From a virus, in IMG/VR virus record IMGVR_UViG_3300028394_002818, positions 1 to 41,501 of that record: a stretch of DNA of 41,501 bases. One strand, written 5' to 3'. The translations under genes were made by a program, and so were the position numbers. The notes below the pieces were generated by a model, which was not told where the DNA came from, did not search any database, and saw only the letters and a program-made list of their open reading frames with translations. The stretch's first letter is position 1. Each line of letters opens with the position of its first letter. Of this stretch, positions 2,985-38,189 are shown one piece after another.

Positions 2985-3058
2985 TGAGCTAAATAATATT
3001 ACAAAACATACTCTGCTTCTTGCACATCCATTGTATGTCCATTGAGGATCTTACAATG
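2985..3058 (+). repeat. Duplicated late promoter and leader, copy 1 (copy 2 at 4210-4284)
   Basis: From the late box to the ATG, this leader is nearly identical to the one before the second fibre gene (shared blocks include CATACTCTGCTTCTTGCACA and TCCATTGTATGTCCATT). Both end in a GAGGATC or AAGGATC ribosome binding site seven bases before ATG. The conservation covers promoter, untranslated leader and N-terminal codons. Confidence 0.85.
2988..2995 (+). promoter_or_regulatory. T4-type late promoter (GCTAAATA)
   Basis: The octamer GCTAAATA matches the T4 late box TATAAATA at its last six bases. It sits 60 bases before the fibre gene start, in a leader duplicated upstream of the second fibre gene. 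Confidence 0.6.
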
Positions 3059-3724
3059 ACAACTCGCAAACTCACTACCAAAGCCATTGCCAAATCGGCC
3101 AGCACTTATATAGGCAAAGCAGGCGAATTATTCTACGATACTGCCACAGCAAGTCTTAAAATATCAAACGGTACTACGCCCGGTGGAGCAACTCTTAGCA
3201 CTGATGGAAGTGGTGGTGGTTCAGTAACACTAACAAACGGTGCAGTGATAAAAGATACAGCGGCAAATGCAGTGGCATTTGGTAACGCGGCCGGTCAAAC
3301 TTCACAAGGTGGTGGTGCAGTGGCCGTTGGTATCGAGGCTGGAAAAACTACACAAGGTGATAGTGCAGTGGCCATTGGTAATATTGCTGGAACAACCACA
3401 CAAGGCACGGCGGCAGTGGCCGTTGGCACAGCCGCCGGTCAAACCACACAAGGTGCTGGTGCAGTGGCCGTTGGTTTTGGTGCTGGCCAAACCACTCAAG
3501 GCGCAGGGGCAGTTGCCATTGGTCAAGGCGCAGGCGCAACTGCTCAAGGCGCCAGATCAATCATCATCAATGCCAGTGGCGCTGCCTTGAATCAAACAAC
3601 AACCGATACATTCACAGTGAAACCTGTGCGTGATGGTGGCGCCGCAAGTGGTATGGCCGCTGCCGGATTTAAACCCTGTTATTATAATCCAACAACTGGT
3701 GAATTTGTCTACGCAAGCTCATAA
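3056..3724 (+). CDS. Beta-roll fibre-like protein A (6 repeats)
   Basis: This 222-aa protein starts at the ATG at 3056, chosen for the GAGGATC site; a start 12 codons upstream lacks one. Residues 1-71 are a head domain (ending VIKDTAANAVAF), followed by six 16-residue repeats of the type AVAxGxxAGxTTQGxx. After these come SIIINASG and a C-terminal cap with TFTVKPVRDGG and YYNPTTGEFVY. Repeats of this kind form the left-handed parallel beta-roll of YadA-type adhesin heads. With a late promoter, this fits a virion fibre or decoration protein. It is a close paralogue of the gene at 4282. Confidence 0.8.
   Translation: MTTRKLTTKAIAKSASTYIGKAGELFYDTATASLKISNGTTPGGATLSTDGSGGGSVTLTNGAVIKDTAANAVAFGNAAGQTSQGGGAVAVGIEAGKTTQGDSAVAIGNIAGTTTQGTAAVAVGTAAGQTTQGAGAVAVGFGAGQTTQGAGAVAIGQGAGATAQGARSIIINASGAALNQTTTDTFTVKPVRDGGAASGMAAAGFKPCYYNPTTGEFVYASS
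3269..3556 (+). repeat. Six tandem 48-bp repeats encoding 16-aa beta-roll units
   Basis: The six units encode 16-residue blocks beginning AVAF, AVAV, AVAI, AVAV, AVAV and AVAI. The DNA motif GCAGTGGCC recurs at 48-bp spacing, so unit gain or loss by recombination is plausible. Confidence 0.9.
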
Positions 3725-4220: not shown

Positions 4221-4281
4221 CTACTACAAAAACATACTCTGCTTCTTGCACATCCATTGTATGTCCATTAAGGATCTTACA

Positions 4282-5142
4282 ATGACAGCACGTAAACTCA
4301 GTACCAAAGCCATTGCCAAATCAGCCAGCACTTATATAGGTAAGGAAGGCGAATTATTCTACGATACTGTAACAGCAACTCTTAAAATATCAAACGGTAC
4401 TACGCCCGGTGGAGCGACACTTAGCACTGACGGAAGTGGCGGTGGTTCAGTAACATTAACAAACGGTGCAGTGATAAAAGATACCGCGGGTGATGCAGTG
4501 GCATTTGGTCAAAGTGCTGGATTAACCTCACAAGGCACTTACTCAGTGGCCATTGGTTTTCTTGCTGGGACAACCTCACAAGGTATTACCGCAGTGGCCG
4601 TTGGTCCAGCCGCTGGTGCAAACTCACAAGGCAATTCAGCAGTGGCCGTTGGTTATGGTGCTGGCAACCAAAATCAACTTGCGTCAGCAGTGGCCATTGG
4701 TAAGCAGGCGGGAGAGACTTCACAAGGTGTCAATACAGTGGCCATTGGTCCCGAAGCTGGACGAGACACACAAGGCTCCGAATCAGTGGCCATTGGTTTT
4801 GGTGCTGGAAAAACCACACAAGGTGCTTTTAGTGTAGCAGTTGGTCTCAATGCTGGCCAAACCAGTCAAGGCAACACAGCAGTGGCACTCGGTTACAACG
4901 CTGGATTAACCTCACAAGGTGCCTCAGCAGTGGCCATTGGCTTTTATGCTGGTGCAACCTCACAAGGCGCCAACTCAATCATTATTAATGGCACTGGCCT
5001 TGCCTTGAATCAAACCACTGCCAGCACATTCACTGTAAAACCTGTGCGTGATGGTGGATCGGCTGCTGGCATGGCCGCGGCTGGATTTAGACCCACATAC
5101 TATAATCCCACAACTGGTGAGTTTGTCTACTCCAGTTCATAA
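4282..5142 (+). CDS. Beta-roll fibre-like protein B (10 repeats)
   Basis: This 286-aa paralogue of the 3056 gene has a nearly identical N-terminal domain and C-terminal cap (TFTVKPVRDGG, YYNPTTGEFVY) but ten rather than six 16-residue beta-roll units, with more divergent variable positions. The start follows the AAGGATC site. A virion fibre or decoration protein is inferred from the YadA-head-like repeats and late promoter. The constant ends and variable middle suggest the pair diversifies by changes in repeat number. Confidence 0.8.
   Translation: MTARKLSTKAIAKSASTYIGKEGELFYDTVTATLKISNGTTPGGATLSTDGSGGGSVTLTNGAVIKDTAGDAVAFGQSAGLTSQGTYSVAIGFLAGTTSQGITAVAVGPAAGANSQGNSAVAVGYGAGNQNQLASAVAIGKQAGETSQGVNTVAIGPEAGRDTQGSESVAIGFGAGKTTQGAFSVAVGLNAGQTSQGNTAVALGYNAGLTSQGASAVAIGFYAGATSQGANSIIINGTGLALNQTTASTFTVKPVRDGGSAAGMAAAGFRPTYYNPTTGEFVYSSS
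4495..4974 (+). repeat. Ten tandem 48-bp repeats encoding 16-aa beta-roll units
   Basis: Ten consecutive 16-residue units begin with (A/S/T)VA(F/I/V/L)G. The pattern is that of fibre gene A but with four more units and more sequence drift; one unit (GNQNQLAS) lacks the usual TSQG turn. Confidence 0.9.
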
Positions 5143-21169: not shown

Positions 21170-21553
21170 ATGGCATATTCAGACAAAGTAATTGATCACT
21201 ACGAAAATCCACGCAATGTGGGGTCGTTTGAAAAAGATGACCCCACAGTGGGTACTGGTATGGTTGGTGCACCTGCCTGTGGTGATGTAATGAAACTGCA
21301 AATAAAAGTGGATGAAGATGGCATTATCACTGATGCCCGATTCAAAACTTATGGATGTGGTTCAGCAATTGCCAGTTCGAGTTTGGTTACAGAGTGGGTT
21401 AAGGGTATGCATATTGATGATGCTAGCAATCTTAAGAACAGTCAAATTGCAGAAGAACTTGCACTTCCACCTGTAAAGATACATTGTTCAATTCTAGCAG
21501 AAGATGCTATCAAGGCGGCTGTAAATGATTACCGTAACCGACACGGCAGCTAA
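21170..21553 (+). CDS. iscU: IscU-like iron-sulfur cluster scaffold
   Basis: A 127-aa, full-length scaffold on which [2Fe-2S] clusters are built. All three ligand cysteines are present (Cys37 in PACGD, Cys63 in YGCGSA, Cys106 in KIHCS) plus Asp39. LPPVK (99-103), the motif bound by the Hsp70 HscA, is intact. No cysteine desulfurase is in the window, so sulfur would come from host IscS. It overlaps iscA by 29 bases. Confidence 0.96.
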   Translation: MAYSDKVIDHYENPRNVGSFEKDDPTVGTGMVGAPACGDVMKLQIKVDEDGIITDARFKTYGCGSAIASSSLVTEWVKGMHIDDASNLKNSQIAEELALPPVKIHCSILAEDAIKAAVNDYRNRHGS

Positions 21554-21851
21554 AAAAATAAAACAACTGCTTGAAAAAAGAGGCAAAGGTGCAGGCATTC
21601 GCATAGGTGTAAGAACCACAGGCTGTAGTGGGCTAGCATACACTATGGAATATGTGGACGAATATACAGCCGAAGTGGGCGTAACTAATTTTGCTCAAAA
21701 AGACTTTGTATTATTAGTGGATGCCAAAAGTCTAGCCTATCTAAATGGTTTGACAATGGATTGGGTTCGCAATGGACTCAATGAAGGTTTTGATTTCATC
21801 AATCCCAACGAACGAGATCGTTGCGGATGTGGTGAATCGTTTCGAGTATAA
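21525..21851 (+). CDS. iscA: IscA/HesB-type iron-sulfur carrier
   Basis: A 108-aa A-type carrier with the three conserved cysteines Cys34 (TGCSG), Cys100 and Cys102 (RCGCGESF). It passes clusters from IscU to target enzymes. It overlaps iscU, so translation is coupled. A sigma70-type promoter for the next gene begins just after its stop. Confidence 0.96.
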   Translation: MITVTDTAAKKIKQLLEKRGKGAGIRIGVRTTGCSGLAYTMEYVDEYTAEVGVTNFAQKDFVLLVDAKSLAYLNGLTMDWVRNGLNEGFDFINPNERDRCGCGESFRV

Positions 21852-25880: not shown

Positions 25881-26094
25881 AGGCACAGGGATTACTGTTA
25901 GAGATAACGAAAATATTAATCAATCTTTGAGAAGATTTAAGAAAAAGATTGAGGAAGCAGGTATTCTAGACGACCTTAGAAAGCATGAGTTTTATGAAAA
26001 ACCAACGACAGAACGCAAACGTAAAAAAGGTGCGGCCAAAGCTCGTTGGCGCAAGAAACTCGAAAGTCAACAATTACCTAAAAAAATGTATTGA
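25864..26094 (+). CDS. rpsU: Ribosomal protein bS21
   Basis: A 76-aa protein. [37 protein letters not shown] and [12 protein letters not shown] match bS21 of bacteria along its whole length. bS21 sits on the 30S platform near the anti-Shine-Dalgarno helix and aids initiation. bS21 is the ribosomal protein most often carried by phages and is known in pelagiphage HTVC008M. The ATG at 25864 is preferred over 25831, which would add 11 unrelated residues. It overlaps the preceding gene by 17 bases. Its stop lies inside the -35 box of the next promoter. Confidence 0.96.
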
Positions 26095-26119
26095 CATAAC
26101 GCCTGTGTTATGCTATAAT
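26091..26119 (+). promoter_or_regulatory. Consensus sigma70 promoter (TTGACA-17-TATAAT)
   Basis: Both hexamers are perfect and the spacer is exactly 17 bases. The -35 box contains the TGA stop of rpsU. A long dyad (TTAAGTTC 26120-26127 with GAACTTAA 26140-26147) lies between promoter and ATG. Confidence 0.92.
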
Positions 26120-27086: not shown

Positions 27087-28991
27087 ATGAGCAAAATCAT
27101 CGGTATCGATTTAGGTACAACAAATAGCTGTGTAGCAATCCTAGAAGGCGGAGTTGCTAAAGTAATCCCAAACAGCGAAGGTGCTAGAACAACACCATCA
27201 ATCGTTGCATATACAGAAAAAGAAATTCTAGTAGGCGCAACTGCAAAACGACAATCAGTCACAAACCCCAAAAACACAATCTACGCAAGCAAGCGTCTCA
27301 TTGGCCGCAAGTTTGACGAATCAGCTGTGCAAAAAGATATTGATCTAATGCCTTATTCAATCATCAAAGCTGACAACGGTGATGCGTGGATCGAAGCTAA
27401 CGGCGAGAAACTTGCACCACAGCAAGTGTCAGCTGAAGTGTTGCGTAAAATGAAAAAGACCGCGGAGGACTATTTAGGTCATGAAGTTACCCAAGCAGTT
27501 ATCACAGTTCCTGCGTACTTTAACGACAGCCAAAGACAAGCAACTAAAGATGCTGGCCGCATTGCCGGCTTGGAAGTACTCCGTATTATTAATGAGCCTA
27601 CTGCGGCAGCTCTTGCTTATGGCGTTGATAAAGCTGATAAAAGAGATAGGAAAATTGCTGTTTACGACCTTGGTGGTGGTACTTTCGACATCTCGATCAT
27701 TGAAATCGCGAATATCGACGGCGATAAACAAATCGAAGTACTAAGCACAAACGGCGACACATTCCTGGGTGGTGAAGACTTTGACCAAGTTATCATGGAT
27801 CACTTAGTTGACGAGTTTAAGAAAGATTCTGGCATCGATTTGAAGAAAGACATGTTGGCTCTGCAACGCTTGAAAGAATCAGCTGAGAAAGCCAAGATTG
27901 AGTTGTCTAGCACAGCAAGTACCAGTGTTAACTTGCCGTACATTACCGCAGATGCAAGCGGTCCTAAGCACATGAATGTAACTATTAGTCGTGCTAAGTT
28001 TGAATCAATGGTTGAGCAACTTATCGAGCGCTCAATTGAGCCATGTAAGATTGCTATGAAGGACGCTAAAGTGACTTCCGCTGACATTGATGAAGTTATC
28101 CTAGTTGGCGGACAAACACGTATGCCTAAAGTACAAGAAGCAGTTGAGAAACTGTTTGGCAAGGCGCCACGCAAAGATGTTAACCCAGACGAAGCTGTAG
28201 CCGCCGGCGCCGCAGTACAAGGTGCTGTGTTGGCAGGCGATAAGACAGACGTTCTATTGTTGGACGTTACTCCATTATCTCTAGGTATTGAAACAATGGG
28301 TGGTGTGTTTACCAAATTGATTCAAAAGAACACAACTATCCCAACCAAAGCTAGTCAAACATTTAGTACTGCGGACGACAATCAACCAGCTGTTGACATC
28401 AAGGTAGCACAGGGTGAACGTGAACTGTTCAAATACAACAAAGCATTGGGTGAGTTCAAGTTGGATGGCATTGCTCCTGCACCACGCGGTATGCCACAAA
28501 TTGAAGTTACATTTGATATCGATGCCAACGGCATTATGAAAATCAGTGCTAAAGATAAAAATACTGGTAAAGAAAACAATATCACTATTAAGTCAGATTC
28601 GGGATTAACTGAAGCTGAGATCCAACGCATGGTACAGGAAGCTGAAGAAAATGCAGAGTCTGACAAGAAAACACGTGAGTTGATTGATGCACGTAACAAT
28701 GCAGAATCTACCACACACGGTGTTAAGAAAGACTTTGAAGAATTCAAAGATCAGTTGACTGAAGAAGAAAAGACTGCATACGAAACAGCATTGGCATCTG
28801 TGCAAACAGCAATTGCTGGTGAAGATGTAGAAGCTATCACTACTTCGTTAACTGCATTTTTTGAAGCGGCCAATCCGGTTACGTCTAAAAAACAAGCCGC
28901 TGAGCAGGCCAAAAATGCACCACAAACTGAAGGTGGTGAACAAACTGTGGATGCAGCCTTCACAGAGGTTGACCCCGCAGACAAGAAGTAA
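27087..28991 (+). CDS. dnaK: DnaK (Hsp70) chaperone
   Basis: A 634-aa, full-length Hsp70 (E. coli DnaK 638). ATPase signatures [29 protein letters not shown] and [14 protein letters not shown] are intact, as are the linker (DVLLLDVTP) and the substrate domain. The C-terminus ends [15 protein letters not shown], like proteobacterial DnaK. The start at 27087 has AAAGGAGAAAATT; the eight codons upstream lack a site. No dnaJ or grpE is present, so host cochaperones are needed. Complete dnaK is rare in phages. Confidence 0.98.
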
Positions 28992-29005
28992 TATAATATA
29001 AACAT

Positions 29006-29058: not shown

Positions 29059-29484
29059 ATGAACCAACTTAGAACTATAGACACAGCCGCTTTGGCACAA
29101 CTGAGCAAAGCACTGGTAGGATTTGATCGTTACTTTAACGTACCAAGTCACCAAAATGGTAACTACCCTCCCCACAACATTGTTAAGTATAGCGATACCA
29201 GCTATGCAATTGAAGTTGCGGTTGCAGGATTTACCAAAGAAGAAATTGCAGTTGAAGTTGATCAAGATCAACTGACTATTAGAGGAGTTATGAATCGTCC
29301 AAACAAAGATGCAGGTGTTGAATATTTGCATCGTGGATTGGCAGCTCGTGACTTTGAACAAACATTTACTCTAGCTGAGTACATGGAAGTAGTGGGTGCA
29401 AAGGTTGATAATGGTATGCTACAAATTGATATAAAGAGAGTAGTTCCAGATGCGCTCAAACCACGCACTATTGAAATTAAATAA
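29059..29484 (+). CDS. hsp20: Small heat shock protein (Hsp20/IbpA-like)
   Basis: A 141-aa protein with an alpha-crystallin domain from about residue 37 to 130 (NIVKYSDTSYAIEVAVAGFT, then ARDFEQTFTLAEYMEVVGAK) and a C-terminal IEI tail for oligomer contacts. It holds unfolding proteins for DnaK. Hsp20 genes are usual in T4-like marine phages. The RBS and leader duplicate those of dnaK, indicating joint regulation. Confidence 0.95.
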   Translation: MNQLRTIDTAALAQLSKALVGFDRYFNVPSHQNGNYPPHNIVKYSDTSYAIEVAVAGFTKEEIAVEVDQDQLTIRGVMNRPNKDAGVEYLHRGLAARDFEQTFTLAEYMEVVGAKVDNGMLQIDIKRVVPDALKPRTIEIK

Positions 29485-29485
29485 T

Positions 29486-29516
29486 TGTAAATAACAATGG
29501 GGGAGGCAACTCCCCC
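29486..29516 (+). promoter_or_regulatory. clpS late promoter with 5'-terminal GCAA hairpin
   Basis: TGTAAATA (29486-29493) predicts +1 at 29499, the first base of a perfect 7-bp stem GGGGGAG/CTCCCCC closed by a GCAA tetraloop. Lacking a T run, it looks less like a terminator for hsp20 than a transcript 5' cap. Confidence 0.6.
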
Positions 29517-29532
29517 AACTTTGGAGAAATAA

Positions 29533-29835
29533 ATGGCAGGCACGGATATTCAACTAGATGAGAAAATTAAAGTAGTAGTTAGCGAACCCAAAAGATGGAA
29601 GGTTATCCTGCTTAATGATGATTCAACTCCAATGGATTTTGTTGTTTCAGTATTGATTGAAATTTTCAAACACAATCCTGATACTGCCCAGCGTGTTATG
29701 TCAGAAGTGCATGAAACTGGTAGCGGAATTGCTGGTGTTTATAGTTTTGAAATTGCTGAAGCCAAAGCTGTTGAAGCAACTAATCAAGCACGAACCAATA
29801 ATCATCCCCTCCAAATTAAATTGGAAGAAGAATGA
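29533..29835 (+). CDS. clpS: ClpS adaptor protein
   Basis: A 100-aa protein matching ClpS: KVILLNDDSTPMDFVVSVL with the N-degron pocket Asn28, Asp29, Asp30 and His60, then VYSFEIAEAKA and HPLQIKLEEE. ClpS brings N-end-rule substrates to ClpAP. The flexible N-terminal extension needed for ClpA contact is present (about 20 residues). It overlaps the heme oxygenase gene by four bases. Confidence 0.95.
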   Translation: MAGTDIQLDEKIKVVVSEPKRWKVILLNDDSTPMDFVVSVLIEIFKHNPDTAQRVMSEVHETGSGIAGVYSFEIAEAKAVEATNQARTNNHPLQIKLEEE

Positions 29836-30374
29836 GCCTACGAGAAATTACCAAAGACCTCCATCATGAGGCAGAAACTACCAAATTTGCTCAATTGCTG
29901 TTAAGTGGCAAAATTGAAAAGGCAGACTACAGAAACTACCTGTACAATTTGTTAGCAATCTACGACCCAATTGAATGGTATGGCAAACGTCAAGGATTTT
30001 TTGACAACATGCCCAGCTTACCAAGACTACGGGCTATTGTTCAAGATTTTAATGAATTGGATGATGGCAGCTATCATTATTTGACCCCAGCCACACTTGA
30101 ATATCAAACATACCTACATGCATTGTGCAACGACCCGGCACGTAAACATTTGATCAAGGCTCATTTGTATTGCAGACACATGGGAGATTTATTTGGCGGA
30201 CAAATCATTGCTAAACAAGTGCCTTATACCAGCGGTAAATTTTATCAGTTTGAGGATGCCAATGCGCTCAAAGCCGCTATTCGTTTAGAACTCACAGATG
30301 ATCTTGGAGACGAAGCTCGTGTGGCATTTGAGTATGCTATCAAAATGATGAAGGATCTTTATCATGGAGAGTAA
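29832..30374 (+). CDS. ho1: Heme oxygenase
   Basis: A 180-aa protein with the heme oxygenase fold: LREITKDLHHEAE with proximal His11, and the distal-helix motif HMGDLFGGQ (Gly118-Gly123). It opens heme to biliverdin, iron and CO using ferredoxin or another donor. The next gene is a bilin reductase and overlaps it by 11 bases, so the product is probably passed on. Length is slightly short of bacterial HO proteins (about 200-240). Confidence 0.9.
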   Translation: MSLREITKDLHHEAETTKFAQLLLSGKIEKADYRNYLYNLLAIYDPIEWYGKRQGFFDNMPSLPRLRAIVQDFNELDDGSYHYLTPATLEYQTYLHALCNDPARKHLIKAHLYCRHMGDLFGGQIIAKQVPYTSGKFYQFEDANALKAAIRLELTDDLGDEARVAFEYAIKMMKDLYHGE

Positions 30375-31047
30375 TGTCTGGGACACTTTGATCAAGATTG
30401 AAGAGTATCTTGAATCTCAATTCTATGCAACTGGCAGTATAATTCACGAGCCAGGCATGGATCGGTTCAATCAACCAGGCTGGGTCAACAAAGTATGGGC
30501 CAGCAGTAGATACCGCCGTGCTCATATCGATGTAGTGGATGCTCGCGAAACAAAAGGCCTGTGGATGATGCACTGCTGTATTTTCCCGCATACTCACAAT
30601 CCAGCTCCAATTTTTGGATTTGATGTTGTGGCAGGCAAAAACAAAATCACAGGTTGCTTTATTGATTACAGCCCAACCTATGACAAATTTCATCCCATGA
30701 TTGATCATTTTGGAGAAGAAGTTGGTCGTTATGAATGGAACAAAAAACGCAAGTTGCCAGAGTGGGCAGAGCGTATTTTCAGCGAGCACATGGTGGCCGC
30801 GGGTAATGTAAGCGACGAAACTGAACTAAAACAAATTGCAAATTTAGCACATGTTTTGGTAAATCATTATTTGGAAACAGTGAGTGAAAGTAACAATACA
30901 GTGATAGATACCAGCAGTTATCAAAATTATTATTGCGATAATCAAAAACAAAACCCGCATACGCCCAAAGTTATGGTTAGTTTAGGGCTCAGCGAAGAGG
31001 ATGTACAGGTGTTTATTCAGGATTGTTTGTTCCCTGAAATCCGATAA
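30364..31047 (+). CDS. pcyX: Ferredoxin-dependent bilin reductase, PcyX-like
   Basis: A 227-aa protein of the PcyA/PebS family: KVWASSRYRRAHIDVVD, then WMMHCCIFPHTHNPAPIFGFD. His70 and Asp87 occupy the positions of PcyA His88 and Asp105, which bind and protonate biliverdin. It would reduce biliverdin to a coloured bilin. Phage PcyX has been reported to make phycoerythrobilin and was assigned to phages of non-cyanobacterial hosts, which matches this context. The product specificity cannot be read from sequence alone. Confidence 0.85.
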   Translation: MESNVWDTLIKIEEYLESQFYATGSIIHEPGMDRFNQPGWVNKVWASSRYRRAHIDVVDARETKGLWMMHCCIFPHTHNPAPIFGFDVVAGKNKITGCFIDYSPTYDKFHPMIDHFGEEVGRYEWNKKRKLPEWAERIFSEHMVAAGNVSDETELKQIANLAHVLVNHYLETVSESNNTVIDTSSYQNYYCDNQKQNPHTPKVMVSLGLSEEDVQVFIQDCLFPEIR

Positions 31048-31050
31048 ATA
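31043..31050 (+). promoter_or_regulatory. T4-type late promoter, near-leaderless gene
   Basis: The predicted +1 for GATAAATA (31056) is three bases before the ATG. The hairpin TTACAC/GTGTAA (31052-31057 with 31063-31068) puts the ATG in its loop in read-through RNA. Confidence 0.55.
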
Positions 31051-31058
31051 TTTACACT

Positions 31059-32885
31059 ATGCGTGTAATTGACATTATATCAGAAGCAACACTTCAACGG
31101 TCATCTAGTACCAGCTGGCCTGACTATCTTAAAAATCTACTTACGGCTAACAATATTGGAGTGGGACCGCAAGGCGAAAAACTTGCCGGGCAACACTTAA
31201 ATTCTAATTCAAAAGAACTAATTAAATCTCTAATCGCACAGTTTGCATCGGCTGACAATAAAATACAATTTTCTCAACAGATCGAAGATACCGTTGTAAC
31301 GCTATTACCAAGCAAACAATCAATACCTCTTAAGTATCTGCACAAGAGTACTGAAATTAAAGGAAGCGCGGCTGAATCGGGCAAAGAAAAAAAACCATGG
31401 AACGAAGGCGAAGTTGCCGAAACTATCTTAGGTGCCGCACTTTATGCTAGATTTTTTAGCAAGAAAAAAGTTGGGCCAGAGGATGTATGGTCTGCTCTGA
31501 AAATGTTTACAAAAAACGTAGTTCCAGGCGGATTTGAAATTGTTGGAACAAAAAGAAATAAGAAAAGCCCTATTGCTATGAGGGCTATTAACAAACCTTT
31601 AAATAACTTAGTTATTGATAACCTTATACATAACCGAGCAGAATTAAAGAAACAATATCCCGAAGGCGTTGAAGCATTAGAACAAAAAGTAGTTGCCTGT
31701 GCCGCATATGTAAATGAATCAAGCAAAGTACTACAAGCATTGGAAGAAGCAGATGCTAATCCAGGTGCGCCAATTAACATTAAAACAGATGGTGTTGGTG
31801 ATCAAAAAGGAACCAAAGCCGACTTACAAATTGATATTGGAAATTGGCAACAATTACTAAGCCTTAAAGTCAACGATATTAAACAATTTGGACAAGATAG
31901 CGGATCAAGCGGCGCTATCATTACAATTTTCTTCCAGCGTTTTATACCTGATTTAGATTTGTCAGACTTGTATATGCGGGAAGGCGAGCCTATTCCCTGG
32001 ACACCAGAGACAGGAGAAGGATGGCCTGACATGGACAACAAAAAGGCTGTTAAACAACTTAAGGCAGATGGCTTATGGGATGCCGCATTAGATCAAGTTT
32101 ATAGATTGACTGGCATGGCTTACCAAAAGGCGGCAGCTCATTTACAAGATAAATTAACAACACCAGAGGGTTCTGCAGAAGTAGTTACAAATTTCTACAA
32201 AGGTATTTTACATCATGCACAAGGCAATGCTCAGTTTCAAACACTAGTAATTTTAAATCCAGATAGTAAAACTGCCTGGAAAGAGTTAGAGTTTGGGGCT
32301 AGCTTAGAGCAAGCATTAGGCAACTATAAAATAGAAGTTACTGTAGAAATTGGTTCTCGCGGAGCAAGTAACCACAAATTACGTATATACGGCAAAGCTA
32401 TAACACCAGAAGCAGTTGTTGCCTCTCAAATTAAAATTGATAGCGAAGAAGATGCCAAGGCAGCTAAGAAAAAAATAGATGGCGGCAAAGTACCATTGCA
32501 TTCTGGTAATGAAATGTTATTACAACTGCGATCATATCAACAAGAAAGCGGTAATATGCGAAACCCTGTTGAAATGGGGCCTTTATTAAAGAGTCTTACT
32601 GAAGTACAAAAAATAGAAGATTTGCCAGATTTATCTACCATTGAAAAACCTGCTCAAGTAGCAAGTACACAAATCAAACCGACTGTTAAGAAACCAGTTG
32701 CATTTAAAAAACAGGTTATTACACCAGTAGATGTCGCACCAGTAGAACCTACAAATAGTGATAAACCCATAACTACTACTTTACAAGGCAACGAATTTAC
32801 ATCATCAGCATCCCAACAAGCAGGTATGCCAGAAAAAGAAGAACCTGCTATGATGGAACAAAAAATAGTACATCTAAAGTTTTAA
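31059..32885 (+). CDS. Large late protein, possible head cargo with nuclease-like motif
   Basis: A 608-aa protein. MRVIDIISEA matches the T4 capsid-targeting peptide style (M-K-x-x-x-(F/I)-I-x-E|A), suggesting packaging in the head and cleavage after Glu9. KADLQIDIGNWQQLLSLKV (about 249-267) has an Asp...(S)LK arrangement seen in degenerate PD-(D/E)XK nucleases, but the usual (D/E) is Ser. The last 110 residues are a Pro/Lys/Thr-rich linker. It could be an injected effector. No family is confirmed, and no RBS is seen at the start. Confidence 0.6.
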   Translation: MRVIDIISEATLQRSSSTSWPDYLKNLLTANNIGVGPQGEKLAGQHLNSNSKELIKSLIAQFASADNKIQFSQQIEDTVVTLLPSKQSIPLKYLHKSTEIKGSAAESGKEKKPWNEGEVAETILGAALYARFFSKKKVGPEDVWSALKMFTKNVVPGGFEIVGTKRNKKSPIAMRAINKPLNNLVIDNLIHNRAELKKQYPEGVEALEQKVVACAAYVNESSKVLQALEEADANPGAPINIKTDGVGDQKGTKADLQIDIGNWQQLLSLKVNDIKQFGQDSGSSGAIITIFFQRFIPDLDLSDLYMREGEPIPWTPETGEGWPDMDNKKAVKQLKADGLWDAALDQVYRLTGMAYQKAAAHLQDKLTTPEGSAEVVTNFYKGILHHAQGNAQFQTLVILNPDSKTAWKELEFGASLEQALGNYKIEVTVEIGSRGASNHKLRIYGKAITPEAVVASQIKIDSEEDAKAAKKKIDGGKVPLHSGNEMLLQLRSYQQESGNMRNPVEMGPLLKSLTEVQKIEDLPDLSTIEKPAQVASTQIKPTVKKPVAFKKQVITPVDVAPVEPTNSDKPITTTLQGNEFTSSASQQAGMPEKEEPAMMEQKIVHLKF

Positions 32886-33065: not shown

Positions 33066-34169
33066 ATGCAAAGCACGACAGGCGCCGGTGGGTTGTCGAG
33101 AAAATTACTCACCACATTACTAATCACTGCCTTTGTGTCTACCACAAGTATGGCACAAACATTGATCAATCAAGGCACTTATGACTCAAAAAGTCTAGTG
33201 GACACCAATAGTACTACTACCAGCACTAGTACTATCAATACCAATAATGTTAATAGTGGTACTGTTACTACTAATAATAATACTGCATTAAGCGGCGGCA
33301 CTACTAACACTAACAACAACAATAATGTTAATAGTGGTACAATGACCAACAACAATAACAACAACAATGTTATGAGTGGAAGTGTAACCTATACTAATAA
33401 CAATAACAACGTTAATAGTGGTACTCAAACATTTAACAATAACAACGTTAATACTGGTGATATGACTAACCGCAATATTAACACCAGCACCAGTACAAAT
33501 ACTAATAATAATGTCAATACTGGTGATATGACTAACCGTAATATTAATACTAGTACGTCCACTTCAAACAATACCAATACTAACATCAATAGCGGAACAA
33601 TGACCAATAATAACAATAATGTTAATACTGGTACAATGACCAATAATAACAACAATACCAGCACCAGTGCTAATCAAAACGTTAATCAAAACAATAACGT
33701 TAATAGCGGTGACATGACCAATCGCAATATCAATACTTCAGACATTACACAACGTATTATTCAACCGCCTCCAACAGCAGTTGCACCTACCATGATGAGT
33801 GGCGGTAATGCCGACTTGTGTAGCACAGGAACAAGCGGAAGTGTACAAACACAAATCTTTGGTGTGAGCAGTGGCGGAACTGTGCGTGATATGAATTGCG
33901 AAAGATTAAAACTAAGCAAGACACTGTACGACATGGGAATGAAAGTGGCCGCAGTTGCAACCATGTGCCAGGATCGCCGAGTATTTGATGCCATGATGGC
34001 TGCTGGAACACCTTGCCCATACGAAGGCCAAATTGGTGCTCAGGCCAAAACACAGTGGGAAGCCAACGCAGATAAAATACCAAAATATGATGAGGCAAAA
34101 ACAGATGACACATATAAGAAAGTTGGCATTGGCGCTATTCTTGGCGCTCTTGTGTTCAAGTTATTCTAA
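33066..34169 (+). CDS. Secreted Asn/Thr-rich repeat protein
   Basis: A 367-aa protein with a signal peptide (about residues 1-31, ending SMAQT). Residues about 60-225 are degenerate repeats of VNSGTMTNNNNN and VNTGDMTNRNINTS, an Asn/Thr pattern suggestive of a beta-solenoid. The C-terminal domain (CSTGTSGSVQTQIFGVSS, ERLKLSKTLYDMGMKVAAVA, AAGTPCPYEG) has several Cys and ends in a hydrophobic segment (VGIGAILGALVFKLF). It may be exported to the envelope of the infected cell or sit on the virion. It overlaps the next gene by 65 bases. Confidence 0.7.
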   Translation: MQSTTGAGGLSRKLLTTLLITAFVSTTSMAQTLINQGTYDSKSLVDTNSTTTSTSTINTNNVNSGTVTTNNNTALSGGTTNTNNNNNVNSGTMTNNNNNNNVMSGSVTYTNNNNNVNSGTQTFNNNNVNTGDMTNRNINTSTSTNTNNNVNTGDMTNRNINTSTSTSNNTNTNINSGTMTNNNNNVNTGTMTNNNNNTSTSANQNVNQNNNVNSGDMTNRNINTSDITQRIIQPPPTAVAPTMMSGGNADLCSTGTSGSVQTQIFGVSSGGTVRDMNCERLKLSKTLYDMGMKVAAVATMCQDRRVFDAMMAAGTPCPYEGQIGAQAKTQWEANADKIPKYDEAKTDDTYKKVGIGAILGALVFKLF

Positions 34170-37487: not shown

Positions 37488-38189
37488 TTACCTCAAACGT
37501 GCCAAACCCACTAGCCTAAATAAACTTAGCCACATCCAACCAATATCAAATTCAAACCAGCGTCTACTCAGTTTGGGATTTGCAGGTTCGAGATGATGAT
37601 TGTTATGTAAACATTCACCGCCAATAATAATACCCCAGGGCATAATGTTGCGACTTTGATCTTTCGTTTCGCCATTACGATATCCTATCCAGTGAGCAAC
37701 ACCGTTGATTACTCCGGCTGCCCAGAACGGTATCCAAAGCATTTGTACACCCCACACGATTAAGCCCCACGGTCCAAAGAACAATAGGTCTATGACCAGC
37801 ATTAGAAGAATACCGAAGCGACTGTGTGGAGTATACAAATTGCGTTCAATCCAATCATCAGGCGTTCCCACACCATATTGTTGGATCATTTCTTTATCTT
37901 TACTTGCTGAATGATATAGGCCAGCACCCTTGAAGAACACACGCCAAATACCGTATACGTGGGGAGAATGCGGGTCTCCTTCCGCATCGCTGAATCTGTG
38001 ATGTTTTCTATGTATAGCTACCCACTGCTTGGTAACCATTCCGGTTGTGAGCCAAAGCCAAAATCTCATAAAATGCTCTAAAATTGGGTGGAATATAATT
38101 CCCCTGTGAGCTTGTCCTCTGTGTAAATACAGAGTGACGCATATTATTGTAATATGAGTCATTGCCAAAGTTGCTATAAGTTCTATCAT
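37488..38189 (-). CDS. Fatty acid desaturase (delta-9 type)
   Basis: A 233-aa integral membrane di-iron desaturase with all three histidine boxes: HRGQAH (23-28), HRKHH (60-64) and HNNHH (195-199). Usual bacterial DesC-type enzymes are about 270-300 aa; the N-terminus here starts in the first hydrophobic segment, so the leading region is shortened. It would insert a double bond into membrane acyl chains, raising fluidity. Desaturase genes occur in some T4-like marine phages. The late box GATAAATA puts +1 within one base of the ATG. Confidence 0.92.
   Translation of the reverse strand: MIELIATLAMTHITIICVTLYLHRGQAHRGIIFHPILEHFMRFWLWLTTGMVTKQWVAIHRKHHRFSDAEGDPHSPHVYGIWRVFFKGAGLYHSASKDKEMIQQYGVGTPDDWIERNLYTPHSRFGILLMLVIDLLFFGPWGLIVWGVQMLWIPFWAAGVINGVAHWIGYRNGETKDQSRNIMPWGIIIGGECLHNNHHLEPANPKLSRRWFEFDIGWMWLSLFRLVGLARLR

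Follow-up and report, generated by a model that had tools for sequence, protein, structure and literature searches.

A heme oxygenase and PcyX-type bilin reductase pair beside Hsp20 and ClpS genes in a large T4-like phage

Introduction

Why phages of heterotrophic bacteria carry enzymes that degrade heme and make bilins is a stated open question (PMC11480375). Among viral ferredoxin-dependent bilin reductases (FDBRs), PebS of cyanophage P-SSM2 resembles PcyX in being a single phage polypeptide that yields phycoerythrobilin, but it lies on the PebA/PebB side of the family tree, whereas the reductase examined here lies on the PcyA/PcyX side. PcyX is missing the residue Glu76 that PcyA needs to make phycocyanobilin (PMC10151467), and has a specific aspartate, Asp55 (PMC11480375). 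Characterised members of the PcyX group yield phycoerythrobilin (PMC11480375, PMC13197396). In one account, whose main text has no mention of Clp or Hsp genes, PcyX comes solely from marine viruses (PMC11480375).

Two described systems come closest to the locus studied here. The first is the cultured Pelagibacter phage Mosig EXVC030M (MT647606), a T4-like phage with a 141 kb genome, in which genes for heme oxygenase (HO) and PcyX are adjacent, overlapping and on one strand; since Mosig infects Pelagibacter, the presence of HO and PcyX in a heterotroph phage was already known. The second is the set of hemO-pcyA/X-alaS cassettes from large aquatic phages with a proposed non-cyanobacterial host, including freshwater phage CB_2, whose FDBR is a true PcyA without the PcyX aspartate; the purpose of these cassettes has been called enigmatic (PMC11480375).

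Here we describe an HO-FDBR pair in a 41,501-nucleotide stretch of viral DNA (positions 1 to 41,501 of IMG/VR record IMGVR_UViG_3300028394_002818), referred to throughout as the window. An initial sequence-only reading had proposed HO plus PcyX in a phage that does not look cyanobacterial. That description stands, although Mosig and the published cassettes mean that it is not new: the pair is a further case of a known aquatic-phage enzyme pair. The window shares with Mosig the T4-like, non-cyanobacterial setting and the adjacent, overlapping one-strand genes, as well as an aspartate at the PcyA Glu76 site. It differs in that the two PcyX proteins are 48% identical, and in that the Mosig cassette has 2OG-Fe(II) oxygenase and neck protein genes on its flanks, with no DnaK, Hsp20 or ClpS alongside. 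The resemblance to the published cassettes extends to a 'broken cassette', with alaS located elsewhere in a close relative of the window.

Results

The HO and FDBR genes lie at the end of a chaperone and ClpS block

The principal features of the window are listed in Table 1. Heme cleavage and bilin reduction are indeed encoded by adjacent, overlapping genes, as first read: the HO and FDBR reading frames are intact and overlap by 11 nt, both proteins exceed the curated Pfam cut-offs for their families, and the key residues of both are conserved.

Table 1. Positions of the HO-FDBR pair, its neighbours and the iron-sulphur assembly genes in the window.
Feature	Position	Strand	Evidence and remarks
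IscU-like Fe-S scaffold	21170..21553	+	PF01592, E=3.6e-54; possible iron sink
IscA-like Fe-S assembly protein	21525..21851	+	PF01521, E=4e-17
DnaK (Hsp70)	27087..28991	+	PF00012, 857 bits; starts conserved chaperone block
Candidate sigma-70-type promoter	28969..28997	+	11/12 consensus match only; precedes Hsp20-ClpS-HO-PcyX
Hsp20 small heat shock protein	29059..29484	+	PF00011, E=6e-17; neighbour kept in clades A and B
ClpS, Clp protease adaptor	29533..29835	+	PF02617, E=2.5e-29; 4 nt overlap with HO
Heme oxygenase (HO), 180 aa	29832..30374	+	PF01126, E=6e-20; predicted heme to biliverdin + CO + iron
FDBR, PcyX type, 227 aa	30364..31047	+	PF05996, E=2e-17; predicted biliverdin to phycoerythrobilin
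Phage protein without known domain, immediately 3' of FDBR	31059..32885	+	ORF, no Pfam match

A perfect 12/12 match to the sigma-70 consensus, with 17-nt spacing and a TG extension, lies at 26091-26119, ahead of the exonuclease-MazG-DnaK genes. Reading frames for NrdA and NrdB are also present, together with a DesA-type fatty-acid desaturase at 37488-38189 (397 bits, with the cut-off at 400); the discovery of the AlaS phages likewise started from a desaturase contig (PMC11480375). Proteins similar (73-78%) to the IscU of the IscU-IscA pair (21170-21851) occur in a few phage records, for example Phage C48C1 and Acinetobacter phage MD-2021a. The reading frames at 3020-3724, 4246-5142 and 33066-34169 encode, as judged by eye, two AVAVG-type repeat proteins like adhesin head repeats and one very Asn/Thr-rich repeat protein.

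The reductase belongs to the PcyX group

The best solved match of the window FDBR is PcyX_EBK42635 (5owg), at 225 bits against 67 bits for PcyA; the gap persists in a profile search, in which PebA and PebS are remote. PcyX_EBK42635, a metagenome sequence from within the pelagiphage clade, shares with the window protein its family, fold and the equivalent of its catalytic aspartate. An AlphaFold2 model, built from window and locus sequences only, reached a pLDDT of 92.7 and has 5owg as its top fold match (TM 0.94 by target). Three residues, D56, H70 and D87, are invariant in all 241 homologues from three phage PcyX clades. Asp56 occupies the column of PcyA Glu76 and, by position in 5owg, corresponds to the PcyX-specific Asp55; H70 and D87 are the equivalents of PcyA His88 and Asp105. 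The window protein is not a PcyA: Asp56 replaces Glu76, and the NCBIfam PcyA model scores it at 102 bits, below the cut-off of 206.

In a quick maximum-likelihood tree, sampled without alphaproteobacterial PcyA (Bradyrhizobium) and without the CB_2 FDBR, the window FDBR groups with Mosig, the PDB PcyX and the other two phage clades (one 55-row group, SH-aLRT 100); the PcyA proteins of cyanobacteria and cyanophages fall outside this group, as do PebA/PebB/PebS. There are long branches among the outgroups of this tree, and no branching order within the PcyA side is claimed. The label 'PcyX-like' given by the sequence-only reading is therefore upheld by a phylogeny with PebS, PcyA and PcyX. Phylogeny, nearest structure, modelled fold and aspartate signature agree in identifying the window FDBR as a PcyX, with a predicted reaction from biliverdin via 15,16-dihydrobiliverdin to phycoerythrobilin.

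The solved chains nearest to the window HO are cyanobacterial and bacterial heme oxygenases. It has the proximal histidine and the GDxxGG distal helix expected of HO-1-type enzymes: 225 of 226 phage homologues have His11, and almost all keep the motif, which reads GDLFGG in the window protein. We predict from these features that it cleaves heme to biliverdin IX-alpha.

The pair is widespread and maintained despite exchange of HO

Relatives of the window FDBR are encoded in 371 pattern-selected stretches in IMG/VR, and HO adjoins FDBR in 78 of the best 80 relatives. Queries with clade-B and pelagiphage (clade-C) FDBRs gave 82 and 194 loci, sets which may overlap. Many of the 80 loci examined per clade are near-duplicates, so the number of independent cases is smaller; at 82% identity there are about 20 FDBR lineages in clade A, 24 in B and 6 in C. 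No FDBR was found on plasmids, and the window region had no nucleotide match among cultured phages. Very large contigs (356, 364, 345 and 358 kb) are among those that carry the block. The 356-kb contig, G001 (IMGVR_UViG_3300023174_000036), is a close relative of the window, with 83-94% identity in aligned blocks and 91-94% in the three longest, and encodes 29 tRNA genes plus a tmRNA call. The ARAGORN tmRNA (278207-278623, L190) has a long tag and sits beside a large tRNA cluster at about the position where the window ends; it may be spurious.

Where computable, the ratio dN/dS is approximately 0.03-0.04 in FDBR and 0.02-0.04 in HO, with synonymous sites near saturation; these values indicate strong purifying selection on both genes. 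The HO neighbours in 78 of 80 relatives, the 371 FDBR loci, the conserved residues and the low dN/dS together go far beyond chance. While the clade-A FDBRs are monophyletic (support 99), their HOs are not, and a tree constrained to unite the clade-A HOs is worse by 95 log units (AU p=1.8e-104). The trees thus indicate that HO at this fixed site has given way to divergent HO lineages while PcyX stayed, so that the activity was retained despite replacement of the gene.

The comparison of the window with G001 (window 29200-31087) shows a stepwise drop in identity from Hsp20 through ClpS and HO to PcyX, in the manner of a recombination patch. Identity is 97-100% in DnaK, 92-94% in most of Hsp20 and ClpS, 86-90% in HO and 80-84% in most of FDBR, after which the alignment ends; dS is 0.06 for DnaK and 1.87 for FDBR. 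Frequent replacement at the cassette, with HO and PcyX always kept and a dN/dS of 0.02-0.04, argues for selection on the activity.

Hsp20 and ClpS accompany the pair in two of three phage clades

In clade A, to which the window belongs, 72 loci extend far enough upstream to show the gene order, and 59 of them have DnaK-Hsp20-ClpS-HO-FDBR; the related order (DnaK-)Hsp20-ClpS-HO-FDBR is found in 73 of 79 clade-B loci. An independent search with ClpS, for which HO and PcyX were not used as queries, gave the same picture from the other side: all 80 of the nearest viral ClpS loci continue with HO, and 75 also with FDBR, the other five ending early. FDBRs of clades A and B are only about 50% identical, and the Hsp20-ClpS arrangement is accordingly old. 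Clade C (pelagiphage), by contrast, has neither ClpS nor Hsp20 beside the cassette, and a gp13-like neck gene in 73 of 80 loci. The cassette can thus exist without the chaperone link, which is not universal, and the linkage may be one inherited gene order instead of a functional coupling. The gene overlaps suggest that the block may be co-expressed.

As far as we have searched, the Hsp20-ClpS context in two of the three PcyX phage clades is the new part of these findings; the open-access literature gave nothing relevant that unites HO, phage and ClpS. The contig had been valued at first reading for its full gene neighbourhood. That neighbourhood is informative through the Hsp20-ClpS linkage and through AlaS in a relative, both of which had been missed, although the window alone reveals no new role.

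Some cassettes contain a further gene between HO and PcyX. In 19 clade-B loci (e.g. L302:6490-7983, L286, L309) this is a tryptophan-halogenase-like gene (PF04820, E=3e-92 in L302), and related halogenases also occur near some pelagiphage cassettes. Ten clade-B loci (L247, L248-L251, L258, L259, L280, L320, L324) have a carbon-nitrogen hydrolase at this site (PF00795 in L247), and the insert in L079 is, by eye, an S-adenosylhomocysteinase-like protein. The idea that the clade-B insert is AlaS proved wrong, since the inserts are mostly of the halogenase-like or hydrolase kinds.

The host is probably a non-phototrophic proteobacterium

Neither the window nor its 356-kb relative yielded a cyanophage photosynthesis gene; the relative has no match to petE, talC or pstS, and none to psbA, for which short peptide motifs served as the query. 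The earlier statement that no cyanophage host gene is present is confirmed to this extent, psbA by peptide motifs only, and on the same basis FDBR phylogeny and gene content together lead us to reject a cyanophage origin. These results bear on one of several possible roles, in which the pigment would serve the phycobilisomes of a cyanobacterial host. Cyanophages with PebS or PcyA do employ related enzymes, and T4-like core genes are held in common with them (NrdA is 42% identical to that of P-SSM2). Set against this, the PcyX clade stands apart from cyanophage PcyA and PebS, none of these genes was matched in the relative, the closest cultured carrier infects Pelagibacter, and the proteins closest to the phage DnaK are betaproteobacterial (67-72%). 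We regard this kind of light harvesting as very improbable.

The phage DnaKs form their own clade, outside both beta and gamma sequences, and the host class is therefore not settled by DnaK. A search of 25 records for pmoC (PF04896), which as a stand-alone gene would mark a methanotroph phage, had no match, but the control search likewise matched nowhere. Overall, the phage is large and T4-like, with a non-cyanobacterial host that is probably a proteobacterial non-phototroph.

Matches to the block in GTDB bacterial genomes came from MAGs named Halobacteroidaceae, Neomarinimicrobiota (a 335-kb contig), Pirellulales and Rickettsiales (L094-L097). A bacterial origin was ruled out: they carry the same phage block, two with identical or same-length IMG/VR counterparts, and are probably viral contamination. 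Among the genomes of the class to which the Rickettsiales MAG belongs, FDBR exceeded the cut-off in only 2 of 385: G693, with two distant FDBR-family genes (L227, L229), and a mis-binned phage contig.

Some relatives carry AlaS, and no recognisable bilin receptor was found

G001 encodes a 5-aminolevulinate synthase (AlaS; 563 bits, well above the family cut-off) approximately 34 kb from HO, beyond the window's extent; alaS is not apparent in the window's ORF list, which was read without a profile. AlaS is present in 9 of 24 tested records (G001 and 8 of 23 others); of the 15 that lack it, one is 345 kb long. This distribution is relevant to the proposal that phage ClpS delivers the glutamyl-tRNA reductase of the host to the Clp protease, that AlaS supplies 5-aminolevulinate in its place and that HO-PcyX forms the outlet, so that the phage supplants host control of tetrapyrrole synthesis. 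The fixed ClpS-HO-PcyX order and the AlaS of relatives fit this proposal, and plant literature on control of the pathway mentions ClpS alongside glutamyl-tRNA reductase. However, most of the tested records have no AlaS, and binding of glutamyl-tRNA reductase by phage ClpS is purely hypothetical. We consider the scheme improbable.

PHY domains and Fer2 (2Fe-2S) ferredoxins were sought in 20 records and GAF domains in 16, in searches whose controls worked, and none turned up; every set included three contigs of 345-364 kb, and the others may be fragments. The phages thus seem to depend on host ferredoxin, which PcyX would use, and seem to have no recognisable phytochrome-type bilin receptor of their own. 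Phycoerythrobilin has no C15 double bond and would hence lock phytochromes in one state ('phytofluors'). A phage could in this way supply a bilin photoreceptor of its host with its chromophore or with a decoy, a reading with which the product of characterised PcyX enzymes agrees. PHY proteins above the cut-off were found in 13 of 150 genomes from the order of one DnaK neighbour, which places phytochromes among possible hosts but also marks them as uncommon there. As the phage records yielded neither PHY nor GAF proteins, light signalling appears to us a doubtful explanation.

Discussion

The window very probably encodes a working branch from heme to phycoerythrobilin, placed at the 3' end of an Hsp20-ClpS-HO-PcyX block in a large T4-like, non-cyanobacterial phage. 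This assessment covers the biochemical and genomic part; the benefit to the phage is a separate matter, on which our preference is tentative.

Of the roles considered, we place heme control in the infected cell, with a link to protein turnover, ahead of its four rivals, while regarding it as a possibility and not as the probable answer. HO would convert heme to biliverdin, and PcyX would carry out the four-electron, ferredoxin-dependent reduction to phycoerythrobilin. The heme could come from host hemoproteins that are unfolded and degraded through the chaperone and ClpS-ClpAP route, or from overproduction through phage AlaS, and HO would clear what is set free or made in excess during infection. 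By using up biliverdin, PcyX would drive HO onward; what would remain is free iron and a bilin in reduced, redox-active form.

That iron is the substance of a rival explanation, in which HO frees host-heme iron for the iron enzymes of the phage and PcyX merely removes biliverdin. The window does hold candidate consumers, namely IscU/IscA, the class Ia ribonucleotide reductase NrdA/NrdB and the fatty-acid desaturase, and an iron role has been discussed for such phages (PMC11480375). The AlaS of close relatives points the other way: it feeds heme synthesis, and new heme costs the iron that it would return, so that making heme and breaking it again yields no net iron and speaks against pure salvage. 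Moreover, IscU was found in 1 of 80 clade-A loci, with most of the fetched flanks falling short of its expected place, and a specific four-electron PcyX is unnecessary for mere iron release. Iron supply is on balance somewhat unlikely.

A broader and unlikely reading makes HO-PcyX one arm of a phage-coded programme of tetrapyrrole metabolism and protein turnover, in which chaperones and ClpS would dismantle or re-route host proteins, AlaS would take over the pathway entry, and heme would be turned into phycoerythrobilin for a use other than light harvesting. The bilin might then serve in redox protection, as a signal or, in some relatives, as a substrate of the tryptophan-halogenase-like enzyme.

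Our analysis extends the Asp-type PcyX to a large and common clade of very large phages. Four observations together narrow the choice of roles: Hsp20 and ClpS stay linked to the pair in two large phage clades, HO has been replaced repeatedly at a constant site, close relatives carry AlaS, and the phages lack a recognisable bilin receptor. The question of what heme-degrading, bilin-making enzymes do in these phages now becomes one of concrete tests on protein turnover, free heme and the targets of ClpS.
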